A stretch of 31,795 nt of DNA from a virus: IMG/VR virus record IMGVR_UViG_3300025889_000563, positions 1 through 31,795 of that record; one strand, written 5' to 3'. Position 1 is the stretch's first letter; every line of letters starts with the position of its first letter. Positions 10 through 31,795 of the stretch are shown here, piece by piece. The position numbers and the translations under genes were made by a program. The notes beneath the pieces are model-generated. The model did no database searches and was not told the origin of the DNA. It saw only the letters and a program-made list of their open reading frames with translations.

Positions 10-606
10 ATGTGGTGGGATATTATTAAAAGAATGGATAAGGCAAAAATGCCTACTCACCTTAAAAATAGAGTGAAGGAGATGTTTAGAATTTTAGAAA
101 ATCAAACTCCTAGAGAAGAACAGGCGGATGGGGAAGATGTTTTTATTTATCAGTTATGGGATGAGAAGGACAATGAATGGGGAATAGGTGTATGGGTTTA
201 TAAACAATATCTAAAAGAATCACCCCGCGAAATGTTGCTCAGATGTAAACATATCGTTGAAAAAGAACCCTTATTTTATTCTAAAGACTCGATTGTAGGA
301 ACAGAAACTTTCGAAGGGATGATATTATTTCACAAAAATGGCGTTGATATAATATCGTTGACCTCATTGGAAGAGCTATTTGATTTTTTGGCAGAATTAG
401 ATGAGGAAAATACAATTGGTTTGATACATTTTGATGTTACGTTTGGATTTGATGATTGGACAAGTTATTTAAACGTCACAGATAGTGTATTTACAACTAG
501 AGAGCAAAAACTTAAGGCTCTCAAAGAAACTCAAATTAAACCCGGACCTCTTGATAGTTTAACTCCCGAAGAAAGGGCAATCGTTAGAGGAATTATGGAG
601 GGATGA
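10..606 (+). CDS. Tagged protein of unknown function (paralogue A1)
   Basis: A 198-aa protein that I do not recognise. It begins with the window's recurrent tag (MWWDIIKRM). I start it at ATG 10 and not GTG 7, because the GGAAG at 1-5 is better spaced and the tag of its neighbours begins exactly at M-W-W. The last 60 residues or so (from DDWTSYLNVTDSVF to the end) closely match the end of the next protein, so the two are tandem duplicates with diverged middles. No membrane segment or catalytic motif is visible. The protein is acidic with a short conserved C-terminal helix rich in charged residues. It overlaps nothing and is followed after 2 bases by the next gene. A role as virion cargo is inferred only from the tag. 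Confidence 0.8.
   Translation: MWWDIIKRMDKAKMPTHLKNRVKEMFRILENQTPREEQADGEDVFIYQLWDEKDNEWGIGVWVYKQYLKESPREMLLRCKHIVEKEPLFYSKDSIVGTETFEGMILFHKNGVDIISLTSLEELFDFLAELDEENTIGLIHFDVTFGFDDWTSYLNVTDSVFTTREQKLKALKETQIKPGPLDSLTPEERAIVRGIMEG
12..31 (+). repeat. 20-bp tag-coding repeat, copy 1
   Basis: The 20 bases starting GTGGTGGGATATTATT are identical to 30072-30091, some 30 kb away, in the same codon frame. They encode the WWDIIK part of the N-terminal tag. The flanking sequences differ. Confidence 0.75.
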
Positions 607-619
607 AGATGTGGTGGGA
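598..619 (+). repeat. 22-bp gene-junction repeat, copy 1
   Basis: A 22-base stretch that covers the ribosome binding site, the stop codon of the upstream gene, and the start plus first codons of the downstream gene. It is identical at 1122-1143, so the duplicated unit in this tandem array includes the junction as well as coding sequence. Confidence 0.8.
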
Positions 620-1130
620 GATTATTAAAAAGGGCGAGGATTTTTTACCCAAAGATATCTTACCCATTGTTAAAGAAATACTCAAATCCTATAACCCCAC
701 ACACGGGAAGATTTTTACTCAACAGCAACAAATTGTTAGACTTAGACTCAGCATGTCTCAATCAACCTTTGAAGGAAATATTAATAATTACTATCAAGAT
801 GTTGTAAAGGTCTTAATATCAGTATTAAGACATGTGCTTTTTGAAACGGGGGAGGATGAATACAGCACATATTATGATTGTAAAACTAGATATTATCCTT
901 TACATGGCGTTTTTAGTGATGGACCAGCATCAGATACTAGGTCATTTCCTGTTAAATTACATATTGATGTATCAAAGGATTGGACGTATTTTTTCAAATT
1001 AACGGATAGTGTTTTCTCTACAGCGGAGCAAAAATTAGAGGCACTTAAGGCAACAAATATTCTACCACAACCTTTAAGTCAGTTAGACCCCCAAGATAGA
1101 CAAACGGTTAGAAGTATTATAGAGGGATGA
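609..1130 (+). CDS. Tagged protein of unknown function (paralogue A2)
   Basis: A 173-aa protein starting MWWEIIKKG. An in-frame ATG at 603 exists, but GGAGGG at 597-602 abuts it with no spacer. ATG 609 has a 6-base spacer and restores the tag at the very N-terminus, so 609 is preferred. The C-terminal region (KDWTYFFKLTDSVFSTAEQK and onward to IIEG) is paralogous to the preceding gene, while the middle is Gln- and Tyr-rich and unrelated. No known domain is recognised. It is translationally coupled with both neighbours and lies in a small-gene operon. Confidence 0.8.
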   Translation: MWWEIIKKGEDFLPKDILPIVKEILKSYNPTHGKIFTQQQQIVRLRLSMSQSTFEGNINNYYQDVVKVLISVLRHVLFETGEDEYSTYYDCKTRYYPLHGVFSDGPASDTRSFPVKLHIDVSKDWTYFFKLTDSVFSTAEQKLEALKATNILPQPLSQLDPQDRQTVRSIIEG

Positions 1131-1143
1131 AGATGTGGTGGGA
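1122..1143 (+). repeat. 22-bp gene-junction repeat, copy 2
   Basis: Identical to 598-619. It spans the end of paralogue A2, the ribosome binding site GAGGG, and the M-W-W tag start of the following gene. The gene that follows is not an A-type paralogue, so the repeated unit here is the tag cassette, not a whole gene. Confidence 0.8.
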
Positions 1144-1954
1144 TATTCTAAAGGGTAGTTTAACAACTGCGGAGTATTTGAAGGAATTAGATAAATTCCG
1201 TATGTTTAGAAGAATTGGTTTACAATCAGAATATGAGAGGACTAGTGATAATCTTACAGTTACAAGAAAAAAGGGCAATATGGATACGGATTATGAAAAA
1301 TTATTTTATGATAATGAAATTGAAGAAGGGGTTGAAAGTCTTTTTAAATTTAGAGGAGGTTCTTTTGTAAAAAGGTTAGATGATTATACTGTTTATTTTT
1401 CATTAGAAGAGCAAGAAAATCTTCACCATTTTATATTTAAAGTAAAGGTCACTAATATTAGCCCTGAGAAACGATTTAAACTAAGAGATGCAGATAAGGA
1501 ATTTGAATGGGAAATTATATTTTTCAATGAGGGAGAAACGAATGAAGAAACGGTCGGGGACGGGTGGCTAAAACCTGAGCTTTTCCCACTCGAACTTTTT
1601 GTTGATTCTAGCGCGTATGCAGGTCGTCACCGAGCCAAAGGTGAAATTGTTGGCAAAGATAGAAAAGACTATTTCATATCAAGATTATCTGAAATGACTG
1701 AAGCAGATATGCTAACAGATAACTGGAAAGAGAATGTTAGAAATTTATATTATGAAATGTTGCACGGGGGATACCGCCCATCCCCTGCTCCTTTTAATCA
1801 GTATTATCAAAATGCTTATAGAAAAATTATAGAAATTATTAAACAAAATTCCCCAATACTCATAGCACAAGAAACAATTGCGAGACATGCGGAAGGATAT
1901 TATTCAAGGCTTCCGGACGGCCCACCACCTGTGGGATATGGACGACAGAGGTGA
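1133..1954 (+). CDS. Tagged protein of unknown function (paralogue B1)
   Basis: A 273-aa protein beginning MWWDILKGS. ATG 1133 is chosen over ATG 1127 for the same reasons as upstream: correct spacing from GAGGG and the tag at the N-terminus. A central block (ESLFKFRGGSFVKRL, then YTVYFSLEEQENLHHFIF) is clearly shared with the next protein (LFKFKKGSFAVRF, YVKLEEQENLHHFILE), so these are a second tandem paralogue pair. The pattern of alternating hydrophobics around EEQENLHHF suggests a beta-sheet domain, but no family is recognised. The tail is Pro/Gly-rich (DGPPPVGYG). No membrane segment is visible. Confidence 0.8.
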   Translation: MWWDILKGSLTTAEYLKELDKFRMFRRIGLQSEYERTSDNLTVTRKKGNMDTDYEKLFYDNEIEEGVESLFKFRGGSFVKRLDDYTVYFSLEEQENLHHFIFKVKVTNISPEKRFKLRDADKEFEWEIIFFNEGETNEETVGDGWLKPELFPLELFVDSSAYAGRHRAKGEIVGKDRKDYFISRLSEMTEADMLTDNWKENVRNLYYEMLHGGYRPSPAPFNQYYQNAYRKIIEIIKQNSPILIAQETIARHAEGYYSRLPDGPPPVGYGRQR

Positions 1955-1960
1955 TAATAA

Positions 1961-2686
1961 ATGTGGTGGGACATTCTTAAAAATACAAGTTTTACAGACA
2001 AGGAGTATCGTCATAAAATAGATGGCTACAATATGTTTACACTTATGTTTAGTGATTCAAAACCTAGTTGGATGGAAGTCAATACTGAAAATCATTTACC
2101 TTTTACAACATTAAATCAATTGATAATGAATAATGATTTTCAGAATAAACTCAATGCTCTTTTTAAATTTAAAAAAGGTTCCTTTGCCGTCCGTTTTGAC
2201 GGAGTTACCGTTTATGTTAAATTAGAAGAACAGGAAAATCTTCATCATTTTATTCTTGAAATAGACTTTATCAACACTACTCCTAGGTTTGAAGCCTATG
2301 CGAAAGAAGAAGGGTTAGAATCTAAATATAAGTTTGAGGTTAATTTTATTAAAGAAAAAAATGCTGATGAACCAAAAAATGATGAAGTAAAGGATGTTAG
2401 TCTAGTTCTTGAAGATTTTGTAGATTTAGATTATTATGAGGGGGATGGCAGTTTTGCGACTAAAAGGGGAAACGCAAGAATGGAGTATTTTAAGGAAAAA
2501 CTTAAAGATTGGAAAATACATATGGGTATGCCTTCTAAGGATGAACTTTTTAGAATTTACCAAAAGTCAATTTTGAGCGTTTTTCATACAACCAATACGC
2601 AGTTAACTCAAATGTCAAGGGGTGGTAAATATTACACTGATAGATTCGAAATTGTTTATAATAAAGTAATGGAGGGTGCAGAATGA
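1961..2686 (+). CDS. Tagged protein of unknown function (paralogue B2)
   Basis: A 241-aa protein starting MWWDILKNT, with GAGGTG at 1948-1953 at ideal spacing. Here the M-W-W start is the only good candidate, which supports the start choices made for its neighbours. It shares the KKGSF...KLEEQENLHHFIL block with the preceding protein and is acidic between that block and the C-terminus. Its end overlaps the next start in an ATGA arrangement. Function is unknown. Confidence 0.82.
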   Translation: MWWDILKNTSFTDKEYRHKIDGYNMFTLMFSDSKPSWMEVNTENHLPFTTLNQLIMNNDFQNKLNALFKFKKGSFAVRFDGVTVYVKLEEQENLHHFILEIDFINTTPRFEAYAKEEGLESKYKFEVNFIKEKNADEPKNDEVKDVSLVLEDFVDLDYYEGDGSFATKRGNARMEYFKEKLKDWKIHMGMPSKDELFRIYQKSILSVFHTTNTQLTQMSRGGKYYTDRFEIVYNKVMEGAE

Positions 2687-3561
2687 GTTGGATTTTAAAA
2701 TTAAAGAAACCTATGCAAAAAACGTTGAGAGAATTGGTTCACGATGAGGTGTTGCGGCAAGCGGGCCGTGATGTTCCCGACACTATTTTAGAAACTGAGG
2801 GTCTAATCACACAATATATAGTAGACCGATTAAGAACCCTACACCCATTTACTTCAGCCAATTCACCTGTAGGAGATATTCGTATGAGGTATATAGATAA
2901 GGGTCTTGATTTTAAAGACTTTTATACTCTATTAGAAACAACTGTTAGGTCATATCTAGCTAAAGAATCCCTTGATAGACATACTAAGGATAGAGTAGAC
3001 CCAATTACAGGAAAAACAGAACAAAGAAAGCCTGTAGAAAGAGCCTTGAGTATGCTCCAAGAAGTTTGTAATAGTGTCGGTGCTCGTCTTTATCCGCTAG
3101 CGGCTGTTGGTAGATATCGCATTGTTTATACAGACTCCAATGGTTTAGTTTGGTCTTATGATTTCAATACCACAGACAATCAGCAAGATACATATATTTA
3201 TATTAAGGGTAAAAGTCAAAATCAGGTTTGTATTAAACAAGCCCCCAATGCTACCGTAGTTGTTCCTATTGCAGACCGTGTTGCCGGTATTCTTCTAGCA
3301 GTTCATAGTGGGGGTATTCAATATAGAGATTCAGCAAGGCCAATTCCCGCCCTAGTATATGGTTATTTACTTAGCCTAAATGGTGTTAAACATAGAGGAA
3401 TTATTTATACACCCTACAATGGACCCGGATATCGCGCAAGTGAGATTGAAAGAATTTTATGGGATTTTACTAATAAAAGAAACCCCGATGGAAAATACAT
3501 TTCTGCTACCACCAAGGGTGTCGAAAGACATGAACCTGAGGAGAATCAAAATGACGAGTAG
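2683..3561 (+). CDS. Tagged protein of unknown function
   Basis: A 292-aa protein starting MSWILKLKK, a shortened version of the tag (W immediately followed by ILK). The start overlaps the previous stop (ATGA) and has GAGGG upstream. The N-terminal half is helical and charged. The C-terminal half has a beta-rich pattern (around YRIVYTDSNGLVWSYDF, then YIYIKG and VVVPIADRVAGILLAV). That could be a compact globular domain, but I recognise no catalytic signature. Codon use resembles the neighbouring small genes. Confidence 0.75.
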   Translation: MSWILKLKKPMQKTLRELVHDEVLRQAGRDVPDTILETEGLITQYIVDRLRTLHPFTSANSPVGDIRMRYIDKGLDFKDFYTLLETTVRSYLAKESLDRHTKDRVDPITGKTEQRKPVERALSMLQEVCNSVGARLYPLAAVGRYRIVYTDSNGLVWSYDFNTTDNQQDTYIYIKGKSQNQVCIKQAPNATVVVPIADRVAGILLAVHSGGIQYRDSARPIPALVYGYLLSLNGVKHRGIIYTPYNGPGYRASEIERILWDFTNKRNPDGKYISATTKGVERHEPEENQNDE

Positions 3562-3673
3562 GGAGTCTAAAAAGAAAAGGTATATAAAGAGGGAGGGGCC
3601 ATCAGTTAAATCGGAGAAAACTCGCCCTAATAAACCAAATCATACAAGGAGGTCAAAAACATGGAAGAATTAA
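3551..3673 (+). CDS. Possible 40-aa basic peptide
   Basis: A short reading frame starting ATG 3551, with GAGGAG at 3538-3543 at workable spacing. It encodes 40 residues, about 40 percent Lys or Arg (MTSRESKKKRYIKRE...). It overlaps the end of the previous gene by 11 bases and the start of the next by 13. Such a peptide could bind DNA. The alternative is that this interval is a non-coding leader, since it also contains a TATA-like element at 3581. I cannot decide between these from sequence alone. Confidence 0.45.
   Translation: MTSRESKKKRYIKREGPSVKSEKTRPNKPNHTRRSKTWKN
3581..3588 (+). promoter_or_regulatory. Candidate archaeal TATA box
   Basis: TATATAAA preceded by a purine-rich stretch (AAAGAAAAGG) that resembles an archaeal BRE plus TATA box. 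Transcription would begin about 25 bases downstream, leaving a leader of about 50 bases before ATG 3661. The element falls within a possible 40-aa reading frame, which lowers confidence. Confidence 0.4.
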
Positions 3674-3915
3674 CTTGGGAATTATTTTTGAAAGCAGCAG
3701 GTGATTGCAAAATTCGCCGCTGTTCATTGGAAAGTTGTAGACATAATGAGAACCTACAATGTGTTCTCCCCGAAGTTAATCTCAACCCACAGGGTAAGTG
3801 TGAGCAAGCAGATATTCTTGAACCTAGAGAACTTCGCCTCCGTAATATTAAAAGGGGAGCAAGAAGTTTATTTAATAGAAAGGAACCAAGTTATGACGGA
3901 GGTAGAATTGGATGA
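3661..3915 (+). CDS. Small Cys-rich protein, DUF1540-like, with tag variant
   Basis: An 84-aa protein with a strong ribosome binding site (AAGGAGG). Residues 16-47 carry five or more cysteines in the arrangement C-K-I-R-R-C-S-L-E-S-C, then C-V-L-P and G-K-C. This resembles the small metal-binding DUF1540-type fold. The N-terminus MEELTWELFLKAAG is a plausible variant of the tag, with W followed by x-x-F-L-K. The C-terminal third is basic. It probably binds zinc. The end overlaps the next start (ATGA). Family assignment is from the cysteine pattern only. Confidence 0.72.
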   Translation: MEELTWELFLKAAGDCKIRRCSLESCRHNENLQCVLPEVNLNPQGKCEQADILEPRELRLRNIKRGARSLFNRKEPSYDGGRIG

Positions 3916-4178
3916 GTTGGGAAGATATTTTAAAGATGCCTCGCGGTGATAGAAAAAATGCTACATGGGCTAGAATGGCTGAAATTCTTGATGAGCAAAA
4001 ACGCCCTATGTCTATGAACGAACTAATTGACGTTCTCGTTACAGAAAGAAGTCGTCTACCCATCCCTGTTAGAAGTAAAGGTGGTGGGAGATTTAATACA
4101 TGGCTTATGAATAATCGCCCCGACATTCTTATTGATAAAACAGGGAAGGTAAATATGTATAGTGTGGTGAAAGAATGA
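3912..4178 (+). CDS. Tagged small protein with winged-helix-like domain
   Basis: An 88-aa protein starting MSWEDILKMPRG, with GGAGGTAG about 7 bases upstream. After the tag, residues 20-88 look like a winged helix: an ATWARMAEIL helix, then RPMSMNELIDVLV as a helix-turn-helix entry, and a closing strand pair (DILIDKTGKVNMYSVV). This pattern is typical of HARE-HTH/wHTH domains in nucleic-acid-binding proteins. It overlaps both neighbours by 4 bases. A role in binding DNA, possibly within the capsid, is inferred from fold and tag together. Confidence 0.72.
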   Translation: MSWEDILKMPRGDRKNATWARMAEILDEQKRPMSMNELIDVLVTERSRLPIPVRSKGGGRFNTWLMNNRPDILIDKTGKVNMYSVVKE

Positions 4179-4384
4179 ATTGGGAAAAGTATTTAAGGAA
4201 GAGTAGCGATAGCGATATTAAGGATTGGGAAACTGCGTTAAAGGAGTTTATCAAAGAGGGTAGAAAACTTGGTATTCCTCTTGACGTAATTACCAAACTT
4301 GATGGTGCTTTAACGAGCGCAGAAGCCGGTCCTGCTGAAATTAATACAACCTACGGTGAAGAAGATGATTCTACTGAAGAGTGA
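4175..4384 (+). CDS. Tagged small acidic protein
   Basis: A 69-aa protein starting MNWEKYLRKSS, a divergent tag with W-x-x-Y-L-R. The start overlaps the upstream stop. The middle is an amphipathic helix (IKDWETALKEFIKEGRKLG) and the tail is acidic (GEEDDSTEE). No domain is recognised. The next gene starts within its last codons. Confidence 0.7.
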   Translation: MNWEKYLRKSSDSDIKDWETALKEFIKEGRKLGIPLDVITKLDGALTSAEAGPAEINTTYGEEDDSTEE

Positions 4385-5564: not shown

Positions 5565-6224
5565 ATGAGAAAGATTCTGAAGTCCTGTCCTCTTTGCCAA
5601 CATGAGGACCGTGATGAGTTAGAGAATCAAATGCTATCCGGTGAATTACAACCCGCTGAGTTAGACCGTATTGAGGATTGGCGAAGTGGGTTAAGTAGAA
5701 AACATTTACAGAACCATCTTGGGGACTACCATGATAATTCTAACGAATCCTGTCCCTTATGTGTGGCTGAGAATAGAAAGCAATTAGAAACTGCTATCGC
5801 TGATGGGCAGATTAAACCCTCTCGCGCTGCGGAGATGTTAAACGTGGGCGTGGATTTAGTGAATGTTCATATGAAGAAACACCTACGCCCGTTAGTCCAA
5901 AGAGCGGCGAGTGTAGAGATTGCCAAAACTGAAGTGAACGAAATTGAAGTTCTATCTAACAACCTTTCCTTATTGCAGACAAAACTCAACGAATTTATCT
6001 TCGATGCGGAGGAACTCGACCACCGCACAATTGATTCTCTAGTTAAGTTATCTAAGGAGATTAGGGAAAGTTTAAAATATGCGTTAGAGTTTAAAGGACA
6101 ATTAGTGCATAGGCAGGAAACTGTCGTGGTGCAACAGGTTGAAGTTATTCAACGCGTGTTGATTGATAAATACCCCGAAGTGTGGGCCGAGATTCGAGAT
6201 GATGTAGCGGAGAGATTAGCATGA
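5565..6224 (+). CDS. Tandem zinc-finger / HTH protein, possible small terminase subunit
   Basis: A 219-aa protein with two copies of a CPLC...H module. The first has C8, C11 and His at 47/51/56; the second has C63, C66, H102 and H106. Between the Cys and His pairs each copy has a helical stretch (SRAAEMLNVGVDLVNVHM in copy 2) that resembles a homeodomain-type HTH. The C-terminal half is a predicted coiled coil (LSLLQTKLNEFIFDAEELD and beyond). A DNA-binding N-terminus with a helical oligomerisation tail fits a small terminase subunit, but the large subunit lies 6 kb downstream and a transcription regulator is also possible. Confidence 0.68.
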   Translation: MRKILKSCPLCQHEDRDELENQMLSGELQPAELDRIEDWRSGLSRKHLQNHLGDYHDNSNESCPLCVAENRKQLETAIADGQIKPSRAAEMLNVGVDLVNVHMKKHLRPLVQRAASVEIAKTEVNEIEVLSNNLSLLQTKLNEFIFDAEELDHRTIDSLVKLSKEIRESLKYALEFKGQLVHRQETVVVQQVEVIQRVLIDKYPEVWAEIRDDVAERLA

Positions 6225-6520
6225 GTTGGGAATCTATTTTGAAACTTAAAATTAATATTCCCCGCCTCGCCGCTTCTCTTTTAGATAACATCATGCAAGA
6301 TGGTGTAGAAAGAACCGCAACAGAAGCCCTTCAAGCAATACACGAAGCAATAGATAACTACGAAACCCATCCTTATTTTACATCGAGGGTAAGACAAGCA
6401 AGAACACCTAAAAGGGGAACACAATATATCCCAACTACTATTATGATTAATCGTTATTTTAAATTTAGTGGAAAATACACCGCCAATGGAAATAAATTTA
6501 CTTGGAGTGGTGAAGAATGA
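6221..6520 (+). CDS. Tagged small protein with winged-helix-like domain
   Basis: A 99-aa protein starting MSWESILKLK, in ATGA overlap with the previous gene and with GGAGAG upstream. The body has the pattern of a winged helix: LLDNIMQDGVERTATEALQ, a recognition-helix-like PTTIMINRYFKFS, then a beta pair with Gly/Thr. It is similar in layout to the following protein (DGVxRTA is shared), so the two are likely paralogues. DNA binding is inferred. Confidence 0.72.
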   Translation: MSWESILKLKINIPRLAASLLDNIMQDGVERTATEALQAIHEAIDNYETHPYFTSRVRQARTPKRGTQYIPTTIMINRYFKFSGKYTANGNKFTWSGEE

Positions 6521-6792
6521 AATGGAAATCTATTTTGAAATCTAAACGTAGTAAAGGTATTGCCTTAAGAAGTATAAAATATATAGATGAATTAATGAGC
6601 GATGGAGTTTCTAGAACTGCGGATGAAGTTAAAAGTTTTTTATTAGATAGCAAAACACTAGTTCCATCTAATGCCGAAATTACTCAATATCTTAAAGGTA
6701 GTCCTAAATATGAACTAGTAGGAACAGCAGTCTCTTCTTCACCTTTTAACAATCAAAGAGTAAACGTTTATAGAAAATTACAGGAGGAATAA
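6517..6792 (+). CDS. Tagged small protein with winged-helix-like domain
   Basis: A 91-aa protein starting MKWKSILKSKRS. It shares with its upstream neighbour the tag and the segment IDELMSDGVSRTADEVKSFL, followed by a second helix (SNAEITQYLKGSPKYELVG) and a C-terminal strand. This is consistent with a diverged tandem copy of a small winged-helix DNA-binding protein. The N-terminal 18 residues are strongly basic. The ribosome binding site is weak (GGTGAAG), so translation is probably coupled to the gene it overlaps. Confidence 0.72.
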   Translation: MKWKSILKSKRSKGIALRSIKYIDELMSDGVSRTADEVKSFLLDSKTLVPSNAEITQYLKGSPKYELVGTAVSSSPFNNQRVNVYRKLQEE

Positions 6793-10921: not shown

Positions 10922-12231
10922 AGAAAGAATTGGGTTACGATGCTTCGGGGAAGCAGACAAATTATCTTCCGATTAGAACTGATGATGAAGGTAGGCCAAT
11001 TAATCCGGATATTCAAATTTCTTCTAAGATTTATTCTGAAGAAGAAATGTTAAAAGAGTTTAGAAAAGTTAATCCTAGTAGAAAACAAAGAAAAGATATG
11101 GAATTTTTTCCAGACCTCACAAGAGTTAACGCTGATGGGTATTTTATTGCATTCGACCATAATAACCCATTAGGAGGGGAACCTCTCCCCGTTGGTCGCG
11201 TGGGGTGGAAATTTTTTAATAAACACGGTATTTATTTAACTGTGGGTATTAAAGTTATCCCTATGTATAGAGGTATGGGTATAGCAGAAAAACTTTGGAA
11301 ATTAAGAGATGAGAAGGTCTTTGCCAATAAACCCGCATTTGGATTTGCTAGTAATTTTCAAGAAGGGTGGGTAAATTTTATTAAAAGACAGGGTTGGGAA
11401 GTAGACCCACCAGTTTCTACTCTTCCTAAGAGTGTAGTGGCCGAGGCAGAAAAAACGCTTACGGACCCCGAAAGACCGAGAAGAATGATTACTCTTAATT
11501 TACCTGAAGATATGGCTATGCAAAAAGCCTGGAAAATTATCAAAGCACCATATAGAATTCCCGTAGATTATACTGAATTAGACGAAGATGGAAAGGATAC
11601 ATATTATGAAATGGTGAATAATTTAATGGGTGATTTTTCACTTACTGATGAAGATATTAATAGAATAATTTTTAATTCACCTTGGCTTAGTCATTTGAAA
11701 CCTAAAACTACAAATAGAAAATTAAACAAATTTTTTCAAGGAGCACAAAAGGGCGACCCAAATACGGGCTATTGGACACCGAATATTAAAGAAGCGGTAG
11801 TTTATGCCTTATTAGGCAGTGATACTAGTGGGGAATATGGTGGCGTAAGAGATGTTGGAAAACCTGAAATTAGACAAGCTGATAGGACAGATGAAATGGT
11901 TGACCTTACACCTGATACAGAATTTTTACCTAATGGTTTTTTTGAAGCTAAAAATAAAAAACAGTTATTACAACAAATGAGAGATAAGACTGATACAACT
12001 TCTACTGGCGCTCTTCGAATACATACGGATAAAAATTTACCATACAAAACTTTACCTGATTATCGAATGAAGGATTTTATTTTAGAATTTAAAAAGGAAT
12101 TAGAAGATGGGAAAGATGGTATTTATACACAATTTGCCCAAACTTCTATGGGTGGTATTGAAAATGAAGATAAGCAATTTTATATTGATTACTTAAATGG
12201 GGTTTTAGAGAAATACTTCGGTGGTGCTTAA
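10918..12231 (+). CDS. GNAT acetyltransferase-like protein with possible ADP-ribosyltransferase-like C-terminus
   Basis: A 437-aa protein. Residues about 65-165 show the GNAT fold: strands YFIAFDHNN and PVGRVGWKF, then motif A at 107-125 (LTVGIKVIPMYRGMGIAEKL) with the acetyl-CoA loop R-G-M-G-I-A, and FIKRQGWEVD as the closing motif. Residues about 266-300 (FFQGAQKGDPNTGYWTPNIK followed by EAVVYALLG) resemble the G-x-Y-W-T/S-P-N...A..YA segment of some ADP-ribosyltransferase-like enzymes, but that is weak. The gene is AT-rich compared with the terminase that follows. If delivered with the genome, such an enzyme would modify host targets; that is inference. Confidence 0.68.
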   Translation: MKKELGYDASGKQTNYLPIRTDDEGRPINPDIQISSKIYSEEEMLKEFRKVNPSRKQRKDMEFFPDLTRVNADGYFIAFDHNNPLGGEPLPVGRVGWKFFNKHGIYLTVGIKVIPMYRGMGIAEKLWKLRDEKVFANKPAFGFASNFQEGWVNFIKRQGWEVDPPVSTLPKSVVAEAEKTLTDPERPRRMITLNLPEDMAMQKAWKIIKAPYRIPVDYTELDEDGKDTYYEMVNNLMGDFSLTDEDINRIIFNSPWLSHLKPKTTNRKLNKFFQGAQKGDPNTGYWTPNIKEAVVYALLGSDTSGEYGGVRDVGKPEIRQADRTDEMVDLTPDTEFLPNGFFEAKNKKQLLQQMRDKTDTTSTGALRIHTDKNLPYKTLPDYRMKDFILEFKKELEDGKDGIYTQFAQTSMGGIENEDKQFYIDYLNGVLEKYFGGA

Positions 12232-20171: not shown

Positions 20172-20398
20172 CTGAACAAGATACATTACAAATTTTAAAG
20201 ATGTTAGTAGATAGAATTAAGGACTTAGAAAGACAGGTTATGGAATCAGATATGACGTTGCTAAAGTCGGGCTTTGTAGCCCACACACCACGTCCCGTTG
20301 CATCCGGTAATGCCAACGTTCCTGATGGGAATACAATTTCAAAAATGTCTTGGTCTGACTTAGACGCACTAGTAGAACAATTGGAGGGACAAGTATGA
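20168..20398 (+). CDS. Small coiled-coil protein with C-terminal MSWS motif
   Basis: A 76-aa protein, ATGA-coupled to the previous gene. The N-terminus is a coiled coil (LQILKMLVDRIKDLERQVME), followed by a flexible Gly/Pro/Asn linker and a C-terminal helix KMSWSDLDALVEQLEGQV with Trp62. That helix resembles the window's N-terminal tag and the C-terminus of the scaffold. It could be an assembly adaptor or head protein; function is not known. Confidence 0.72.
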   Translation: MTEQDTLQILKMLVDRIKDLERQVMESDMTLLKSGFVAHTPRPVASGNANVPDGNTISKMSWSDLDALVEQLEGQV

Positions 20399-20818: not shown

Positions 20819-23548
20819 GTGCTACCCTTTGCTATCCCCGGCGAAGATTTCGCCAAGAATCAAGTTTCTATAAAAAACATTGTAGCGGCTAGGTATCTTT
20901 CCGCTAAGGAAAATCCTAAGGCTTATGGAAATGATTGGGAAAAACTTGTAGTGGAATTGCGACAAATGATGCGCGACCCACAGATTAGAAATGCATTGGG
21001 TGATATTGAAGACGATATTTTATTTTCGGACTTAACCTTAGATGTTCAACATGAAAATGCTAGGCAATTGTATGGGGCATTTAATCAACCGCAGGTGTTA
21101 GAGAAAGCTGAGTTACCAAAAAATTTTATTGTCCCAAATAAACCCATGTATCGTATTTTTGAAATTGACGACCTAGATGAAATTAATGGCTTTACAGGCT
21201 ATTTCGTTATTCAAGAAAAATTCGACGGGGTTAGGGTTCAGGTTCACAAACTAGATGGGAAGGTTTCTATCTACACAAATCGTGGTAGAGATATCACAGA
21301 TAAGTTTTCCATCTGTGTTAAGCAATTAGAGGATAAGCATTTTAAGGACTTTATTCTCGATGGGGAGGCGGTTCTATATGTGGAAGGAGAGCCTTTAGTG
21401 CGCTCAGATACAATCGGATTTATTAATAAAAAGATGAATTCCGATGAAGATATTCGCCTACACATTTTTGATATCATGCACTATGATGGAGAAGAAGTTT
21501 ACAAGGATAAATTAGAGGAAAGACTCGCGGTGTTGATGAATAATTTTTCTGCCCACAGTTCAGATTCCGTATCTTTCCCAAATAAGAGTAACACGCGAGA
21601 GGCAGATTCTAAGGAAGATTTAGAAAACTATGCTAAGGAAATCATGGAGAATCCAACCTCGGAGGGTGTTGTAATTAAAGATGCTAAGTCTTCGTATATT
21701 GTGGGTAGGAAGAAAAACCCCAAGTGGGTTAAGTGGAAAAAATTTGTAGACCTAGACGTTTTAGTATTAGAATGTAGGGAGAATAAAAACGGCACTTATT
21801 CTTGTTTAATGGGTATGGGGCCGGTTGAGGGTGGACCTAAAACCGCTGAATATGATGGTAAAAAATACATGAAAGTGGGAAGGGCTGCTAACTATAAGGA
21901 TAAATTAGACGTGGGTTCAATTATTCGTGTTAAGGTTGACGAAATTGTAGGAGATACAAAAAACGGATTTACTCTTAATGGGGCTAAGGTTCACGAAATT
22001 CCTGAAGTGGAGGAACCTGACCGCGTAGTAACTTTAGAACTTTTGGCTTCTGATGGTCGTAAAAAGTTAGGTGACTATAAGGTAGAGGCGTTAAAGAAAA
22101 GCTACTACGTCACAGATGAAATTCACGGTATTGCTAAGGCTGATTTGGAACCCTCTTATGACGGTCTAGTTTTCCACGGTTTTGAGGGTAACCTAATGGG
22201 TAAGAATGCATGGGCGGATAAGGACATGTATATTAAACAAATTAGACTCGCGTATAGTAAGGATAATGGGGTGTTCTTCACAATGGTAATTGACCTACTC
22301 CGCAACCGTTCTGCTATGACTATTGAGCAGATTTATAAAATCTGTATGGAAGAGAACCCCGATTTAGTTTCTCGCCTGTTTGGGGACAAAGAAGGTATGA
22401 AGAAAATGAAGCAAAGGCTGATGAAGGGTGGGGAGGCTAATGGTATTCTTCACCAAGGGGGTAAATTTTTCTGGGATGGAGAAACTATGAAGAAGGCCAT
22501 TTCGCGTAAGGCTCAGTTTGAAATGTGGTTCACCGAAGATGGTTCCCTACATTTTATTGTATACCATGAGGGTAAGGAATATGTGTGGGAAATTGAAGTC
22601 GGTGAAGAAGATGAGTTATACGACTTCTTAGGAGAGTCGGGTAAATATCCCGCCCATGTAATTGATAAGGCTTCTAAGGATGGTCTGCTCGATAAGGGAA
22701 CATTAGTTATTGGGGCGCAAAGACATGGTTACCACGAATATATTTTAACAGGTGAGGATATTAAGTCTAAACTACACTTCCGCTATGTGGAAGCATTCGA
22801 GGACCAAAAGATGTGGATTGCCTTTACGGGATATGAAACTAAGCCCGCACCTAAGGATTCAGATGAGGGCTTGGTGAATATTTATGAGGACAAGTTTGCT
22901 AATGATATGGAGATACAAAAAATGGCAAATAATGCTCATGGACTTATACAATTGGTGGCTTATAAATTATTATTAGAAAAAGATTATTTTACTTCTGATG
23001 ATGTAGCAAAAGAATTAAATGTTGGCTATGATACATTTTTAGATAATCTACAAAATAGTGGCGTTATTACATATAGTATTAGAGATAATACGGGACGCCG
23101 TGGCGGTGACCCCAATGAAGGAAAAGCTTCTTATAATATTAACGTAAGATACCCGATGCCCTTTAGTAGAGCATCATATAATTTAAACGCATATAATAAG
23201 ATACAAAAAAATTTATCTTCAAGACTTATTTCTGGTTTAATTCCACGTCCAAAAGGGGGAAATTATATTACTGACTTAGAAGGAAATAGATTAAAATTAG
23301 TTCGAGATTATGTTTATTATAGAACCTTAACAGACGGAACTCAACTTACAGGATTTTTTAGTCAAGAAGGATATGAAGAAAAAAGAAATGAACTGCTTCA
23401 AGAAATTGAACAGGGTTATGAATCTTTATTAGAATTAGGAAATAAAAGTCCCCGTGAATTCAATTTAAGAACAATCTCATACGCTAAATTCGATATTGAC
23501 CTTCCTACTGAGTTACTAAGAATCTCCCGCGAGAGGCAAAATTCCTAA
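20819..23548 (+). CDS. Multidomain ATP-dependent DNA ligase-like protein
   Basis: GTG start at 20819 with AAGGTGA upstream; 909 aa. The nucleotidyltransferase core occupies about 105-310: motif I E-K-F-D-G with the AMP-accepting Lys134, RGRD at 155-158, DGE at 181-183, EGVVIK at 282-287, and motif V KWVKWKK at 302-308. An OB-fold region follows to about 400 (DVGSIIRVKVDEIVGDT). Residues about 490-560 look like a winged helix, and 565-665 carry a beta domain with a His (GAQRHGYHEYILTGED) reminiscent of a degenerate LigD phosphoesterase domain. The last 215 residues include another winged helix and switch to very AT-rich codons. It seals nicks in DNA if active. Its location in the head module is unusual. 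Confidence 0.82.
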   Translation: MLPFAIPGEDFAKNQVSIKNIVAARYLSAKENPKAYGNDWEKLVVELRQMMRDPQIRNALGDIEDDILFSDLTLDVQHENARQLYGAFNQPQVLEKAELPKNFIVPNKPMYRIFEIDDLDEINGFTGYFVIQEKFDGVRVQVHKLDGKVSIYTNRGRDITDKFSICVKQLEDKHFKDFILDGEAVLYVEGEPLVRSDTIGFINKKMNSDEDIRLHIFDIMHYDGEEVYKDKLEERLAVLMNNFSAHSSDSVSFPNKSNTREADSKEDLENYAKEIMENPTSEGVVIKDAKSSYIVGRKKNPKWVKWKKFVDLDVLVLECRENKNGTYSCLMGMGPVEGGPKTAEYDGKKYMKVGRAANYKDKLDVGSIIRVKVDEIVGDTKNGFTLNGAKVHEIPEVEEPDRVVTLELLASDGRKKLGDYKVEALKKSYYVTDEIHGIAKADLEPSYDGLVFHGFEGNLMGKNAWADKDMYIKQIRLAYSKDNGVFFTMVIDLLRNRSAMTIEQIYKICMEENPDLVSRLFGDKEGMKKMKQRLMKGGEANGILHQGGKFFWDGETMKKAISRKAQFEMWFTEDGSLHFIVYHEGKEYVWEIEVGEEDELYDFLGESGKYPAHVIDKASKDGLLDKGTLVIGAQRHGYHEYILTGEDIKSKLHFRYVEAFEDQKMWIAFTGYETKPAPKDSDEGLVNIYEDKFANDMEIQKMANNAHGLIQLVAYKLLLEKDYFTSDDVAKELNVGYDTFLDNLQNSGVITYSIRDNTGRRGGDPNEGKASYNINVRYPMPFSRASYNLNAYNKIQKNLSSRLISGLIPRPKGGNYITDLEGNRLKLVRDYVYYRTLTDGTQLTGFFSQEGYEEKRNELLQEIEQGYESLLELGNKSPREFNLRTISYAKFDIDLPTELLRISRERQNS

Positions 23549-23597: not shown

Positions 23598-24719
23598 ATG
23601 CAATTAGAAACACCTATGTTTGGAAACTCCCCCCTCGACGGTGGTGAGTTTGTTATCCTAAAGCAAGATAAGGAATTGGTAATTGCAGGCTACGCTTCTG
23701 TAGACGTGGTTGATAAGCAAAATGATAAAATCACCCTACCCGCAATCCGTGAGGCTGCGGATAAATTTATGAAAGAGGAGCGTTATCGAAACGTAATGAT
23801 TACGCACTCCAACGTTCAAGTTGGAGAAGTCCTCAACGAATATACAGATTCCAAAGGAAAAGTCCTAAAAACAGGCGTTGATGATACAGGTTTTTTTGTA
23901 GTAATTAAGTTAAGAGATGATATAGAGAAGGCGCGAGAAGTGGCCCGCGATGTAAGAAAGGGACGCCTACGTTCTTTCTCTATCGGTGGACAGGCGTTAA
24001 ATAAAGTTAACCGACATGATGAATCCGTGGGGACATACAAGGAAATTGATAAACTTGAACTCCACGAGATTACAATTTGTGAGGAAGGCATTAACCCCGA
24101 AGCCAAATTTGATATTGTAAAGGAGGATAAGAAAATGAGTGAAATTGAAAAGGCACTAAACGAATTTAACGAAGTAATGTCGGAACTCCGTAAGGAACTT
24201 CTTTTGAAGGATGATTCAGAAGACAGTGATTTCCAAATGGAGTCCGAGGAAGATGTAGAAATGATGGACGCTATGCCTACTTCTCAAGAAGATGAGATGG
24301 AGTCTTATGGTAAGAAAGATGTAGAAATGCAGAACTATGACGGAGAAATGAAGTCTGTTCGTGCAGATACTCTCGACCTCTCTCCCTCTAACATTGAGAA
24401 GGCTTACGAAGCCTTCCGAGCCGAGCGTGAAGAGGAGCGAGCCTATGATTTAGTCAAGGCTCAATTCGAGGCTCGCTATATGGCTGAGTTAGAGGCTGAG
24501 AAAGCCCGTATTGCTAAGGAAGAGTTTGACGCTGCTGATGCAGTTATGGCTCTTAAGGATGAGTTTAACGCTCTCCGCAAGTCCCTTGAGCAAGGCGATG
24601 CAACCATCGCAAAGTCTGTTGAAGCACAACAGGCTCAGATTGACGAAGACTTTTCCCGCGTTGCAGAAATGTCGTGGAGCGAAGCACACGAGTTAATGGC
24701 TCGTTACAACAGGAGATGA
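23598..24719 (+). CDS. Prohead protease fused to scaffold
   Basis: A 373-aa protein. Residues 15-175 form an HK97/XkdF-type prohead serine protease: GYASVDVVDKQNDKI near the N-terminus, His70 (VMITHS), and the Ser motif RLRSFSIGG at 124-131 (Ser126 or Ser128). Residues 180-373 are an acidic, coiled-coil, Met- and Glu-rich region typical of a scaffold, ending in EMSWSEAHELMARYNRR. The protease matures the prohead by cutting the scaffold and probably the capsid protein. An internal in-frame ATG at 24135 with an excellent ribosome binding site could yield the scaffold alone. The capsid gene follows after 5 bases. Confidence 0.88.
   Translation: MQLETPMFGNSPLDGGEFVILKQDKELVIAGYASVDVVDKQNDKITLPAIREAADKFMKEERYRNVMITHSNVQVGEVLNEYTDSKGKVLKTGVDDTGFFVVIKLRDDIEKAREVARDVRKGRLRSFSIGGQALNKVNRHDESVGTYKEIDKLELHEITICEEGINPEAKFDIVKEDKKMSEIEKALNEFNEVMSELRKELLLKDDSEDSDFQMESEEDVEMMDAMPTSQEDEMESYGKKDVEMQNYDGEMKSVRADTLDLSPSNIEKAYEAFRAEREEERAYDLVKAQFEARYMAELEAEKARIAKEEFDAADAVMALKDEFNALRKSLEQGDATIAKSVEAQQAQIDEDFSRVAEMSWSEAHELMARYNRR
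24119..24137 (+). promoter_or_regulatory. Internal ribosome binding site and start for a separate scaffold
   Basis: AAAGGAGG at 24119-24126 followed after 8 bases by ATG 24135, in frame with the protease gene (residue 180, MSEIEKALNEF). Starting here gives a 194-aa scaffold without the protease domain. The layout matches the known nested scaffold genes of lambda-type phages. The ribosome binding site is as strong as any in the window. Confidence 0.65.
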
Positions 24720-24724
24720 TTAAA

Positions 24725-25957
24725 ATGAGTGGATATTATAAGACAATTGCAGACTTAGAACGAGCAACCTATGGTTCCTTCGGTGGCGACAGACTACTTA
24801 AGGCTACAGGTGCTACAACAGGAATTGAAGGTAGTCACCATGATGGTGCTGCTAGAACAACCACAACCGCACTATACAACCTTGTATATGGACAAAAGGT
24901 TTGGTCTATGATTAACCGTGAGATTAACGCACTTTCTATGCTTCCTAAGAAGCCTTGGAAGTCCTCCGGTTGGAGAGTCCTAAAGGAACGTGCTCTCGGC
25001 GGTGGAACAGACTTAATGACTGTTGCTGATTCCGCTACCCTTGGTGGTGTTGTAGAAAACGAGGCTCTTAGCAACATTACAAACATTCGACCTGTTTACG
25101 ATGTTCTCAGCATTTCGCCTAAGACCATCGCACACACCTTCGAAGTTTCGGAGATTGCACAGTTAATGGGTGGACTTGACGACGGTATTGGCGACCTCAT
25201 GCAAAACTACCGTGAGGAAGTTGGTATTAGCCACGCTGAAGTTATGAACAAAATGGTTCTTCTAGACCTTACCGCTACTGCCGGTGAGGGTCTTCGAGCA
25301 AGCGGATTTACTGAGGCTGAGAGAGAGCAGAACTTAACTTCTCTTTATCACATTATTTCTAACTTTGCTGAGATTACTGCCGCAGAAGCCGCTTCTCCCG
25401 CTCTTGCTAACTCGTTAGAACTCTTTGGTGCTACACGTTCCGCTTCGGACCCTCACCTAGAATCTTACGTTGACCGAAACAGCGGCACAGACCGTGCTCT
25501 AACTGTTAACCTACTAAACACCGCTCTCCGTCAATTGATGGCTCGCGGTGGTGACCCGAAGGTTATTCTAACCGGCTACGACACCATTCAAACTCTTGGT
25601 GAGTTACTACAAGCCCAAGAGCGTTTCATGGGTCGTTCTGAAATCGTCCCAACCCATTCGGGTATTAAGGGCGTTTCTGGCCGTGAAGTAGGTTTCCGTG
25701 TTGCTACATACCACGACATTCCGATTATCCCCGTAAAGGATATGCCGAATGGTGGTGCAGGTCTAAGCGATATGTTAATTCTAGACACCGACCACTTGTT
25801 CCTTTGCACACTAAAGCCCACTGAGTATTTCGAGGGTGGTATCAATGCCGATGTATTCGGTCATGGCAAACTCGGACACCGTGGTCTTTACCGAACCGTT
25901 GCAGAAACAATGTGCACATACTTCCGTGGACAGGGCAAGATTATTGACTTAGAGTGA
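24725..25957 (+). CDS. Major capsid protein, HK97 fold
   Basis: ATG 24725 (MSGYYKTIADLERATYGSFG) follows AGGAGATG at good spacing; longer upstream starts are not needed. The 410-aa product has the expected order: N-terminal helical arm, an E-loop-like Gly-rich stretch (ALGGGTDLMTVADSATLGGV), the long spine helix (DDGIGDLMQNYREEVGISHA), and a P/A domain ending in beta strands (YHDIPIIPVKDMPNG, MLILDTDHLFL). It is directly downstream of the protease and scaffold and has the most C-ending codons of the window, as expected for the most abundant virion protein. LLK at 24-26 could mark a maturation cut, which is a guess. Confidence 0.9.
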   Translation: MSGYYKTIADLERATYGSFGGDRLLKATGATTGIEGSHHDGAARTTTTALYNLVYGQKVWSMINREINALSMLPKKPWKSSGWRVLKERALGGGTDLMTVADSATLGGVVENEALSNITNIRPVYDVLSISPKTIAHTFEVSEIAQLMGGLDDGIGDLMQNYREEVGISHAEVMNKMVLLDLTATAGEGLRASGFTEAEREQNLTSLYHIISNFAEITAAEAASPALANSLELFGATRSASDPHLESYVDRNSGTDRALTVNLLNTALRQLMARGGDPKVILTGYDTIQTLGELLQAQERFMGRSEIVPTHSGIKGVSGREVGFRVATYHDIPIIPVKDMPNGGAGLSDMLILDTDHLFLCTLKPTEYFEGGINADVFGHGKLGHRGLYRTVAETMCTYFRGQGKIIDLE

Positions 25958-26884: not shown

Positions 26885-26885
26885 G

Positions 26886-27225: not shown

Positions 27226-27235
27226 GGTGTCTTGA

Positions 27236-28969: not shown

Positions 28970-28971
28970 TA

Positions 28972-30057: not shown

Positions 30058-30066
30058 GGTGTTGAT

Positions 30067-30327
30067 ATGGCGTGGTGGGATATTATTAAAAATAAGGAAT
30101 TCAACCGACTTACAGATTTTGTAAGTATTGTTAGAGAGCATTTAGAACCCGATGAGGGGGCTAAGGTTTTATCAGATTGGAATAAATTTGGTGACCTTGA
30201 CGCCGCTATTCTTAATGAAATTAGAAGAATGGAACAGCATTTGGGAATTCTCAGAAATAATTTAAGCCCTAAATTAAAGGCAAATATGGAAGCATATGTG
30301 GAAAAATTACAAAATCTTATTGGGTGA
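30067..30327 (+). CDS. Tagged small helical protein
   Basis: An 86-aa protein starting MAWWDIIKNKEF, with GAGGTG upstream. It has two amphipathic helices (FVSIVREHLEPDEGAKVL; LNEIRRMEQHLGILRNNL) and a coiled-coil end. At the DNA level its tag is identical over 20 bases to the tag at position 12. No family is recognised. It opens the second cluster of tagged genes, just after the connector. Confidence 0.78.
   Translation: MAWWDIIKNKEFNRLTDFVSIVREHLEPDEGAKVLSDWNKFGDLDAAILNEIRRMEQHLGILRNNLSPKLKANMEAYVEKLQNLIG
30072..30091 (+). repeat. 20-bp tag-coding repeat, copy 2
   Basis: Identical to 12-31 and in the same reading frame of an unrelated protein. The identity stops where the tag stops. Confidence 0.75.
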
Positions 30328-30331
30328 TACT

Positions 30332-30496
30332 ATGGAAGAATGGTGGGAAACGCTTAAGGCTAAGAAAAAAGTAAAGCGTGATGCCTGCTATTACAAAGTT
30401 AAGAGTAGATATAAGAAGTGGCCCTCCGCTTATGCTTCAGGTGCATTGGTTCAATGTAGAAAAGTAGGTGCTAAGAATTGGGGGGAGAAGAAGTGA
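30332..30496 (+). CDS. Tagged small basic protein of a virus-wide family
   Basis: ATG 30332 lies 5 bases after the preceding stop and gives a 54-aa product starting MEEWWETLKAKKK, a tag variant with W-W-x-x-L-K. The remainder (DACYYKVKSRYKKWPSAYAS, then GALVQCRKVGAKNWG) is a small Lys/Arg-rich module that recurs in marine phages and large DNA viruses (I believe the DUF5872 group; recalled, not checked). There it usually has no such tag. Its two Cys could form a disulfide or bind metal. Role unknown; a DNA-associated virion protein is plausible. Confidence 0.72.
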   Translation: MEEWWETLKAKKKVKRDACYYKVKSRYKKWPSAYASGALVQCRKVGAKNWGEKK

Positions 30497-30705
30497 GTTG
30501 GGAAGATATTATTAAAAACAGACCGGAAGGTTTAGGCAACCCCGACTTTGATGAAGATGATGAAGAAGTGGTTGAGGTTATGAACCAAGTTATTCACCAC
30601 CTTTTAGCCCTAAGAGAAGAAATGGTAGCCGGTCGCATTGATAAGTCTATTGAGTTTTTAGACGCTATGGTTCAGGGCCTTCGTAATGAGGGGGCTACTG
30701 CATGA
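30493..30705 (+). CDS. Tagged small acidic protein, GTG start
   Basis: GTG 30493 overlaps the upstream TGA and gives MSWEDIIKNRPEG, a perfect tag; earlier in-frame starts would bury it. GGGGGAGAAG lies just upstream. The 70-aa product has an acidic linker (PDFDEDDEEVVEV) and a C-terminal helix (LLALREEMVAGRIDKSIEFL). No family is recognised. The end overlaps the next start. Confidence 0.76.
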   Translation: MSWEDIIKNRPEGLGNPDFDEDDEEVVEVMNQVIHHLLALREEMVAGRIDKSIEFLDAMVQGLRNEGATA

Positions 30706-30944
30706 GTTGGGAGGACATTCTACTAAAAGATTGGGTAGATTGTTCTTCTTGTGGTAAAGGAAAAAAACGTCGTCCCTGTGGACGTAAAGATGCATCTAAG
30801 GGAACAAAGAGAAGATGTAGGCCAACCTGTTCTGCTTGTAAAGATTACAAGAGAAGAGGTGGGAAACCTAAGAAGCGTAAAGCAGGAACATTCGATAGAG
30901 AGGAAGAGAAGGGTCTTCACGGTTGGTTTGAAAGGAGGGGTTAG
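30702..30944 (+). CDS. Tagged small Cys-rich basic protein
   Basis: An 80-aa protein starting MSWEDILLKDW, in ATGA overlap with the previous gene. The body is Cys- and Lys/Arg-rich: DCSSCGKGKKRRPCGRKD, then CRPTCSACKDYKRRGGKPKK, with seven Cys capable of binding one or two zinc ions. The C-terminus ends GLHGWFERRG. The PCGR...RCRPTCSAC layout is familiar from small proteins of marine phages and giant viruses, recalled and not verified. A nucleic-acid-binding virion protein is plausible. Confidence 0.76.
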   Translation: MSWEDILLKDWVDCSSCGKGKKRRPCGRKDASKGTKRRCRPTCSACKDYKRRGGKPKKRKAGTFDREEEKGLHGWFERRG

Positions 30945-31538
30945 ATGAACTGGAAACAGATATTAAAATCACCATATTATATTGGAGGTGAGAGTTATCG
31001 AGAAGGTAAGTTTCCAAGAGTGTCTTATTCTAAATTATATCACGGGTATCAGGGACAAGATATTAAAAATATAAATAAGCCCGGTGTTTCAAAATACTTT
31101 TCACCTAATATTTACATGTCTTCTCTTTATGCTTTTTTAGGATGGCATGAAATAGATGGTGATGTAAGGTTTAGAGATAAGGGTAAGCCTAGATTAATTC
31201 AATTATTACCAACAAAAGAAACTAAGGATTTATTTTTTGATTTTGGTATTATGGGAGCAGGTGTAGTTAGAAGAAGACCTAGAAAAAAAGATTGGCCTAC
31301 CCCCTCATATCATATGCACCAAACGCCGTGGGGAGAAAAAATACTTCAACGTTTTGATAAAACAAAGGATTTTAAAGAATTACCTAGTTCTAAAGTTAAA
31401 GAATTGGGATTAAAAATAATTGATAGGTTAAAGCAAAATGATAGTGAAATGCTGTTGTTTTTAAGAGATGTGCAGGAAAGCGCAAAACCAATACAGGCAA
31501 TTAATCACATAAATTATATGTTAGAAAAATATTGGTGA
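30945..31538 (+). CDS. Tagged ADP-ribosyltransferase-like protein
   Basis: AAAGGAGGGG precedes ATG 30945. The 197-aa product starts with the tag MNWKQILKSP. Residues 31-34 (LYHG) and 51-63 (YFSPNIYMSSLYA) resemble the two hallmark segments of H-Y-E-type ADP-ribosyltransferase folds: the L-Y-H-G strand that contacts NAD, and the F-S-P...A.Y.A segment. A clear catalytic Glu is not located. The C-terminal 50 residues are helical. The gene is very AT-rich. If active it would transfer ADP-ribose from NAD to a host or viral target. Other proteins with a YHG start cannot be excluded. Confidence 0.6.
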   Translation: MNWKQILKSPYYIGGESYREGKFPRVSYSKLYHGYQGQDIKNINKPGVSKYFSPNIYMSSLYAFLGWHEIDGDVRFRDKGKPRLIQLLPTKETKDLFFDFGIMGAGVVRRRPRKKDWPTPSYHMHQTPWGEKILQRFDKTKDFKELPSSKVKELGLKIIDRLKQNDSEMLLFLRDVQESAKPIQAINHINYMLEKYW

Positions 31539-31549
31539 GGGGGATAAAA

Positions 31550-31795
31550 ATGCCAATTAAAAAACGTAAAGACGGTTGGTATTGGGGTTCTCGCGGTCCC
31601 TACAAAACACGTAAAAAGGCTGAGGAAGTAGCCGCCGCTGCTTATGCTAGTGGATATGTGAAGAAGTCTTGGGTTGATATTCTTAAGGCTACCTTTAGAC
31701 CCGCCGATGAACCTTTGTCCCCGACAGTTAGGGATTTTCTTAGACCTACCGCAGACGATGAAACAACGGCTCATTATAAAACAGATACAGGAGAG
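31550..31795 (+). CDS. Small basic protein with internal tag, cut by window end
   Basis: GAGGGGG then ATG 31550; the reading frame is open to the last base (82 codons present). Residues 1-36 (MPIKKRKDGWYWGSRGPYKT, AEEVAAAAYASGY) form a basic, aromatic module that recurs in small marine-phage proteins (from memory). Residues 40-47 (SWVDILKA) are the window's tag, here inside the protein, followed by a Pro-rich new domain (TFRPADEPLSPTVRDFLRP). The tag thus marks the start of a second module. The C-terminus is not visible. Confidence 0.72.
   Translation, partial: MPIKKRKDGWYWGSRGPYKTRKKAEEVAAAAYASGYVKKSWVDILKATFRPADEPLSPTVRDFLRPTADDETTAHYKTDTGE

Follow-up and report, generated by a model that had tools for sequence, protein, structure and literature searches.

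A shared N-terminal tag on late proteins of Magrovirales-like archaeal viruses, a candidate signal for loading the head

Tagged genes and head genes of the window

The window, that is, the whole stretch of DNA analysed, spans positions 1 to 31,795 of the viral record IMGVR_UViG_3300025889_000563. Fourteen of its 37 curated genes open with the same short tag, as counted with the expression M-x(0-4)-W-x-x-[hydrophobic]-[hydrophobic]-[K/R/N/L]. In 2000 runs of shuffling within proteins, matches averaged 0.09 and never exceeded 2, versus the 14 observed. The three plus-strand frames together contain 13 copies of the core W-x-x-[IL]-[IL]-K, the three minus-strand frames none. The tag of the window genes is always placed at the start codon, mostly close to a good ribosome-binding site. 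All features described here are located on the plus strand.

Genes 10–606 and 609–1130 share a C-terminal domain (53% identity) and start with MWWDIIK (10–30), in which the tryptophan is residue 2, and MWWEIIK (609–629). The paralogues 1133–1954 and 1961–2686 (33% identity) both have MWWDILK (1133–1153 and 1961–1981). Gene 2683–3561 carries a degenerate tag, MSWILK (2683–2700), with a W-to-I gap short by two residues; it lies outside the counting expression. The variant MEELTWELFLK (3661–3693) opens the Cys-rich gene 3661–3915. It is followed by MSWEDILK (3912–3935) of gene 3912–4178 and the variant MNWEKYLR (4175–4198) of gene 4175–4384, a domain that is fused internally, tag included, in two relatives. 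The paralogues 6221–6520 (winged-helix-like) and 6517–6792 (winged helix; 37% identity) have MSWESILK (6221–6244) and MKWKSILK (6517–6540). In the predicted structure of the 6517–6792 protein, the tag forms a short helix of low confidence, and the winged-helix body that follows it is confident.

At the other end of the window, MAWWDIIK (30067–30090) opens gene 30067–30327. Gene 30332–30496, encoding a basic, Cys-containing protein with weak DUF5872 similarity, has the variant MEEWWETLK (30332–30358). Gene 30493–30705 begins with (GTG)SWEDIIK (30493–30516), the Cys/Arg-rich gene 30702–30944 with MSWEDILLK (30702–30728), which has one residue extra, and gene 30945–31538 with MNWKQILK (30945–30968). 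The body of 30945–31538 is also the C-terminal domain of 10918–12231, whose own N-terminus is untagged. An assignment of 30945–31538 as an ADP-ribosyltransferase, by analogy with T4 Alt, was dismissed: there was no family or PDB match and the model was poor (pLDDT 50). An internal tag, SWVDILK (31667–31687), lies in an open reading frame that starts near 31550 and continues past the window edge; its homologue L003:6997 begins directly at the tag.

The original prediction had placed the tag at the starts listed above, and it was found at every one, in some as a variant. The earlier consensus M-x-W-[WE]-x-I-[LI]-K had to be corrected to M-x(0-2)-W-x-x-[IV]-[LI]-K, an eight-residue tag of roughly M-S-W-E-D-I-L-K. 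The protein bodies had been described as otherwise unrelated, which does not hold for the homologous pairs 10/609, 1133/1961 and 6221/6517.

The terminase large subunit (12234–13673), the portal (15030–16589) and the major capsid protein (24725–25957), a candidate docking partner, are untagged. Between portal and protease, a 76-amino-acid protein is encoded (c76, 20168–20398), a putative scaffold. The head maturation protease (23598–24719) was identified by PHROGs. Both proteins end in a motif of the M-S-W-x-[DE] type: MSWSDLDALVEQLEGQV in c76 (20345–20395), conserved in 17 genomes, and MSWSEAHELMARYNRR in the protease (24669–24716), conserved in 16 genomes.

Virus group and distribution of the tag

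The window is part of a large clade, whose members are archaeal tailed viruses of ~90 kb with two arms and resemble Magrovirales, the viruses of Poseidoniales. Magrovirales have genomes of ~90 kb with two oppositely transcribed arms and an HK97-fold capsid module (PMC10768690). The relatives of the window have 87–94 kb and two oppositely transcribed arms; major capsid protein, portal, terminase large subunit and protease were identified, and the relatives encode PolB, Cpn60, an RFC-type clamp loader, class II RNR and HMGL. The Magrovirales traits of an archaeal-type replisome, GroEL and HMG-CoA lyase are found in these relatives; the window itself comprises late genes only. Named relatives of the capsid protein were Haloarcula viruses and one Methanofastidiosa virus. 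The tag is absent from one named relative, the halovirus HCTV-16, in the ~91 of 105 kb that were read. In a host check, the four genome matches of the capsid protein, on contigs of Altibacter and Maricaulis MAGs, were judged to be mis-binned viral contigs. Outside viral-looking contigs, these two MAGs (3–4 Mb) had few motif matches per genome, near the reversed-pattern control.

A motif search over related contigs had been proposed with the original prediction. In nine long relatives, with genes predicted by a simple home-made caller, 110 of 491 late-strand genes carried the tag versus 0 of 496 early-strand genes (Fisher p = 4e-37), the latter including DNA polymerase B and the clamp loader. 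Long records had 2 to 26 tagged genes each. The motif was present at 195 of 1329 start methionines versus 9 of 6956 internal methionines. In six near-complete relatives of ~90 kb, tagged genes were frequent up to the terminase large subunit (50/143), from portal to c76 (8/24) and from connector to tail (14/26), and were also present after the tail at the arm's end (7/31). The protease–capsid core from c76 to the connector had 1 tagged gene in 76, the tail block 0 in 59 and the early genes 0 in 367. The tag is restricted to the late strand and flanks the head-gene core. This position reflects late expression and nearness to head genes and is no demonstration of packaging.

Constraint on the tag and a related C-terminal motif

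After masking of the tag, about 918 tagged proteins fell into about 454 unrelated families. Among the bodies are winged-helix proteins, Cys-rich basic proteins, a CCA tRNA nucleotidyltransferase, a PAP2 phosphatase and SAM-lyase-like proteins. Conservation is higher in the tag than in the body for most of the larger families. Lysine at position W+5 is present in 89% of the tags, and no consensus extends beyond it. Synonymous codons vary freely within the tag (ATA/ATT/ATC, TTA/CTA/CTT/TTG, AAA/AAG), close to genome usage; the constraint acts on amino acids rather than codons. The tag is also retained within fusion proteins, distant from the start. In one winged-helix family, 7 of 9 late copies are tagged versus 0 of 5 early copies. 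PDB profile matches of the winged-helix family to ribosomal protein S7 were short and partial and were judged to be chance, as was a SAM-lyase match in a ribonucleotide-reductase-like protein (G035).

The original prediction included removal of the tag by the prohead protease. This part found no sequence support: across the tagged proteins, neither a second conserved motif nor a shared cleavage site was detected C-terminal to the tag. The pattern [LI]xE followed the tag in 236 of 415 proteins, slightly above the 207 of the shuffled control.

M[SDT]Wx[DE][LIVA], typically M[SD]Wx[DE], is the C-terminal motif of the protease in 16 of 16 genomes and of c76 in 16 of 17; two copies of c76 have Q at the acidic position. 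The C-termini of protease and c76 were aligned by hhalign with 97% probability. At other loci, the motif terminated 104 proteins, all but five of protease or c76 length, and the five exceptions were truncated proteins with protease-type ends. A scaffold role of c76 and the protease tail seems plausible from this pattern. Tag and C-terminal motif have M-x-W-x-[DE]-[IL] in common, but not the leucine at +4 and the lysine at +5. Outside N-termini, only one c76 C-terminus scored high with the full tag profile; the sequence similarity, which was spotted post hoc, is therefore considered partial.

Probable docking to the prohead and its alternatives

Dozens of different late proteins bear the tag, replication and tail-block proteins never, a pattern suggestive of a common address label for head loading. 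Judged from the sequences, the tag is probably an N-terminal docking peptide that brings late, unrelated proteins to the assembling prohead, where they would become cargo of the head interior and probably be co-injected. A short amphipathic helix may bind a head component through its W-x-x-[IV]-[LI] face: the inner face of the capsid protein, the portal or the scaffold core. Protease and putative scaffold may dock via their C-termini at the same or a neighbouring site. Closure of the shell would trap the tagged cargo, which would be delivered along with the DNA. More tentatively, M-x-W-x-[DE]-[IL] might be one virus-wide docking code, C-terminal on protease and scaffold and N-terminal on dozens of cargo proteins per genome, by which gene fusion would create a large, rapidly exchangeable load of injected effectors and DNA-binding proteins.

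The tagged blocks adjoin connector and terminase genes, and a sequence does not tell inside from outside. The tag could bind the head exterior, neck or connector, with decoration or head-completion proteins as its carriers and no internal cargo. This is rather unlikely: many bodies appear intracellular or directed to nucleic acids (winged helix, CCA nucleotidyltransferase, SAM-lyase-like), and protease and putative scaffold, whose C-termini are similar to the motif, act inside proheads. Many localisation signals are likewise short amphipathic helices at the N-terminus, and the destination of the tagged late proteins could be a viral factory, a membrane or a compartment for replication or assembly, virion entry being incidental. 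Such targeting, with the replication site already named in the original prediction, is improbable and was weakened by the untagged early genes, polymerase and clamp loader included; the tail-block genes are likewise late and also lack the tag.

Repeated duplication of a single ancestor would leave the common start as residual homology without a present role. The paralogues of the window fit such an origin, but the many families that remain after masking, several of which are unrelated in fold or enzyme class, the conservation of the tag, usually above that of the bodies, and the untagged early copies of the same winged-helix body disfavour it and make it very unlikely. A translation-start or late-expression element that is coding by chance, another alternative of the original prediction, would explain the position at the start codon near ribosome-binding sites. 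It is largely refuted, and the remaining probability is minute: the free use of synonymous codons weakens it, highly expressed late genes (capsid, tail) are untagged and the tag is kept inside fusion proteins.

The proposed docking to the prohead has parallels. T4 internal proteins have varied bodies and one common capsid targeting sequence, CTS (PMC3012670). The CTS of IPI, IPII, IPIII and Alt is likewise a short N-terminal peptide of otherwise unrelated proteins, with an aromatic residue followed by two hydrophobic ones at +3/+4 (Y-Q-E-F-I in IPII and IPIII, W-x-x-I-L here). Both viruses have a head protease, here together with the putative scaffold. The MKTYQEFIAEA-type CTS is not homologous to the tag, however, and only the aromatic-x-x-hydrophobic-hydrophobic spacing is common; tryptophan and lysine are near-invariant here. 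T4 has about four CTS proteins, the long records here 2 to 26 tagged genes, and no [LI]xE-type cleavage site was recognised behind the tag. The virus is archaeal, and packaging of its tagged proteins is predicted. Of the T4-like sorting first proposed, the late-strand restriction, the flanking of the head core, the diversity of bodies and the core in common with the protease and c76 C-termini speak in favour; the consensus is a different one.

In phage P1, an N-terminal stretch of DarB is sufficient to bring a reporter into the capsid; more than 9 residues are needed, and the Dar proteins showed no consensus (PMC9024508). DarB thus also has an N-terminal packaging signal, whereas here one 8-residue motif is found on many proteins. 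A C-terminal propeptide was proposed to target the SPN3US protease into the prohead (PMC7411985). Here, the protease C-terminus bears a conserved motif in all relatives, but this motif, which has a partial match in the cargo tag, also ends the separate 76-amino-acid protein. The herpesvirus protease (UL26) and scaffold (UL26.5) have one common C-terminal capsid-binding segment, encoded by nested genes. The viruses studied here also combine a head protease and a putative scaffold with a common C-terminal segment; unlike in herpesviruses, two separate genes are involved, and the cargo appears to carry a similar motif N-terminally.

Six representative tag strings had no match in the literature text searched. 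If head docking is correct, the tag would provide a sequence-readable list of packaged, probably injected proteins, most of them now 'hypothetical', for an abundant uncultured ocean virus group. It would extend CTS-type sorting to archaeal tailed viruses at a scale much larger than in T4 and offer a short portable label to load proteins into capsids. The docking site may be common to protease, scaffold and cargo.

Distribution of the tag in the window and in related sequences

About fifteen genes of the window were originally noted to start with M-x-W-[WE]-x-I-[LI]-K. All listed starts are present; several of these copies are degenerate (starts 2683, 3661, 4175, 30332 and 30702). Gene calling for this analysis was home-made. 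A slightly loosened pattern matches 14 of 37 window genes; 2000 within-protein shuffles averaged 0.09 matches and never exceeded 2. Across the three plus frames of the window, the core W-x-x-[IL]-[IL]-K is present 13 times; the three minus frames have none. Three window gene pairs are paralogous (10/609, 1133/1961 and 6221/6517, named by start position). An additional copy (31667–31687) is internal to an ORF that leaves the window end (31550–31795); here, a KDGWYWGSRGPYKTRKKAEEVAAAAYASGY domain precedes the tag. A relative in another compared record (L003, position 6997) begins directly at the tag, so the small domain may have been fused ahead of the tag in the window ORF.

Scanning IMG/VR with a stringent nucleotide pattern of the tag revealed at least 119 stretches. 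Among the matches listed, 107 of the 119 encode a homologue of proteins that are untagged in this clade, and further tagged genes occur in most of the remaining 12. Once the tag is masked, the 918 distinct tagged proteins encoded by the sequences compared here fall into about 454 families, a measure of diversity and not of frequency, because the loci were partly chosen for carrying the tag. Derived from 207 tags, the consensus reads M-[S/T/N/K/G]-W-[E/K/Q/F/W]-[D/N/E]-[I/V]-[L/I]-K. The terminal lysine is conserved in 89%, and no consensus extends past it.

A modular element and the proteins that carry it

The tag is a modular element at the protein level. Its codons show synonymous variation near genome usage, and it is located at 195 of 1329 called starts versus 9 of 6956 internal methionines. 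In most larger families, conservation is higher in the tag than in the protein body. One winged-helix family is a natural control: seven of nine late copies are tagged, and none of five early copies. Two structures were predicted, one of them poorly. In the model of window protein 6517, a winged-helix body is predicted with confidence and the tag is a short, low-confidence helix; the best PDB matches of the model are winged-helix proteins (E 0.015 at best). Gene fusions retain the tag internally. Tags inside proteins of three compared genomes (G008 81692 and 74985, G007 3336, G011 18140 and 11961) lie at apparent fusion joints of two once-separate tagged genes.

Most tagged proteins belong to no known family. 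Recognisable ones include winged-helix proteins, cysteine-rich basic proteins with weak DUF5872 similarity, SAM-lyase/DUF3293-like proteins with weak scores, a CCA tRNA nucleotidyltransferase and a PAP2 phosphatase. Compared with late proteins that lack the tag, tagged proteins are slightly more basic. The window protein 10918–12231 combines a GNAT-like N-terminal half with a C-terminal domain that elsewhere forms a tagged protein on its own (window 30945 and the compared sequence L068). In another compared sequence (L241, 1229–2503), a single protein contains tag-like segments in its interior and joins a SAM-lyase-like region above the Pfam cut-off to one resembling acetyltransferases.

Genome position and head machinery

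Tagged genes account for 110 of 491 late-strand and 0 of 496 early-strand genes in nine long relatives. Module counts in six of these place the tag around the head-gene core, avoiding tail-block and replication genes. From the late start to the terminase, 50 of 143 genes are tagged, followed by 0/10 between terminase and portal, 8/24 from the portal to the gene of a 76-amino-acid protein and 1/76 from there through ligase, protease and capsid to the connector. Further downstream, 14/26 are tagged between connector and tail, 0/59 in the tail block and 7/31 after the tail. The early strand has 0/367.

The head protease (23598–24719) and the 76-amino-acid protein, a putative scaffold encoded between portal and protease (20168–20398), both carry a conserved motif at their C-terminal ends, typically I-[AS]-K-M-[SD]-W-x-[DE]-[LI]-[ND]-x-L-V. 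It is kept in all genomes where the proteins were found (16/16 and 17/17, respectively), and a profile comparison joined both C-termini at 97% probability. The motif and the cargo tag share M-x-W-x-[DE]-[IL]. This likeness, spotted after the fact, is suggestive, since the L and K of the tag are absent from the motif and, when the full tag profile is used, just one C-terminus ranks high.

A late-arm ATP-dependent DNA ligase-like protein (20819–23548) is also encoded among the head genes, between portal and protease. It shares distant similarity with a separate protein from the early arm of a relative (G015, 81688–83223); hence, these viruses may carry two ligases. A homing-endonuclease-like protein with endonuclease PHROG matches is encoded directly after the terminase gene (13657–15027) and kept in about 15 relatives.

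Virus affiliation and proposed packaging

The window encodes a recognisable terminase, portal, head protease and capsid protein. IMG/VR contains 55 loci related to the capsid protein, whose only named relatives are from Haloarcula tailed viruses and one Methanofastidiosa virus (~28–30% identity). Longer relatives (87–94 kb) have late and early arms on opposite strands. Their gene products include DNA polymerase B, Cpn60, an RFC-type clamp loader, a class II ribonucleotide reductase and an HMG-CoA-lyase-like protein. Size, two arms and gene set match published traits of Aoguangviridae/Magrovirales, which are linked to Poseidoniales archaea and are distant kin of Druskaviridae (PMC10768690). By these traits, the virus likely belongs to Magrovirales.

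The proposed analogy to the capsid targeting sequence (CTS) of phage T4 holds for position and distribution. T4 internal proteins are highly diverse, with the CTS alone conserved (PMC3012670). Consensus, scale and host domain differ, and no cleavage site is visible with the present tag, unlike the T4 CTS, which is removed by protease (PMC7411985). The tag is therefore not placed in the T4 CTS family. In T4 (L239 in our comparison), IPI starts with MKTFKEFTS, IPII and IPIII with MKTYQEFIAEA and the scaffold gp22 with MLKEQLIAEA; the IAEA common to gp22, IPII and IPIII may be a shared scaffold and cargo signal or only the cleavage site. DarB of phage P1 has an N-terminal packaging signal with no shared consensus (PMC9024508).

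We infer packaging of the tagged proteins. The tag would probably fold as a short amphipathic helix and probably bind a prohead component through its W, I/V and L/I. The protease and the putative scaffold may use their C-termini to get to the same location. Late proteins fused to the tag would concentrate in the shell during closure, and travel with the DNA.
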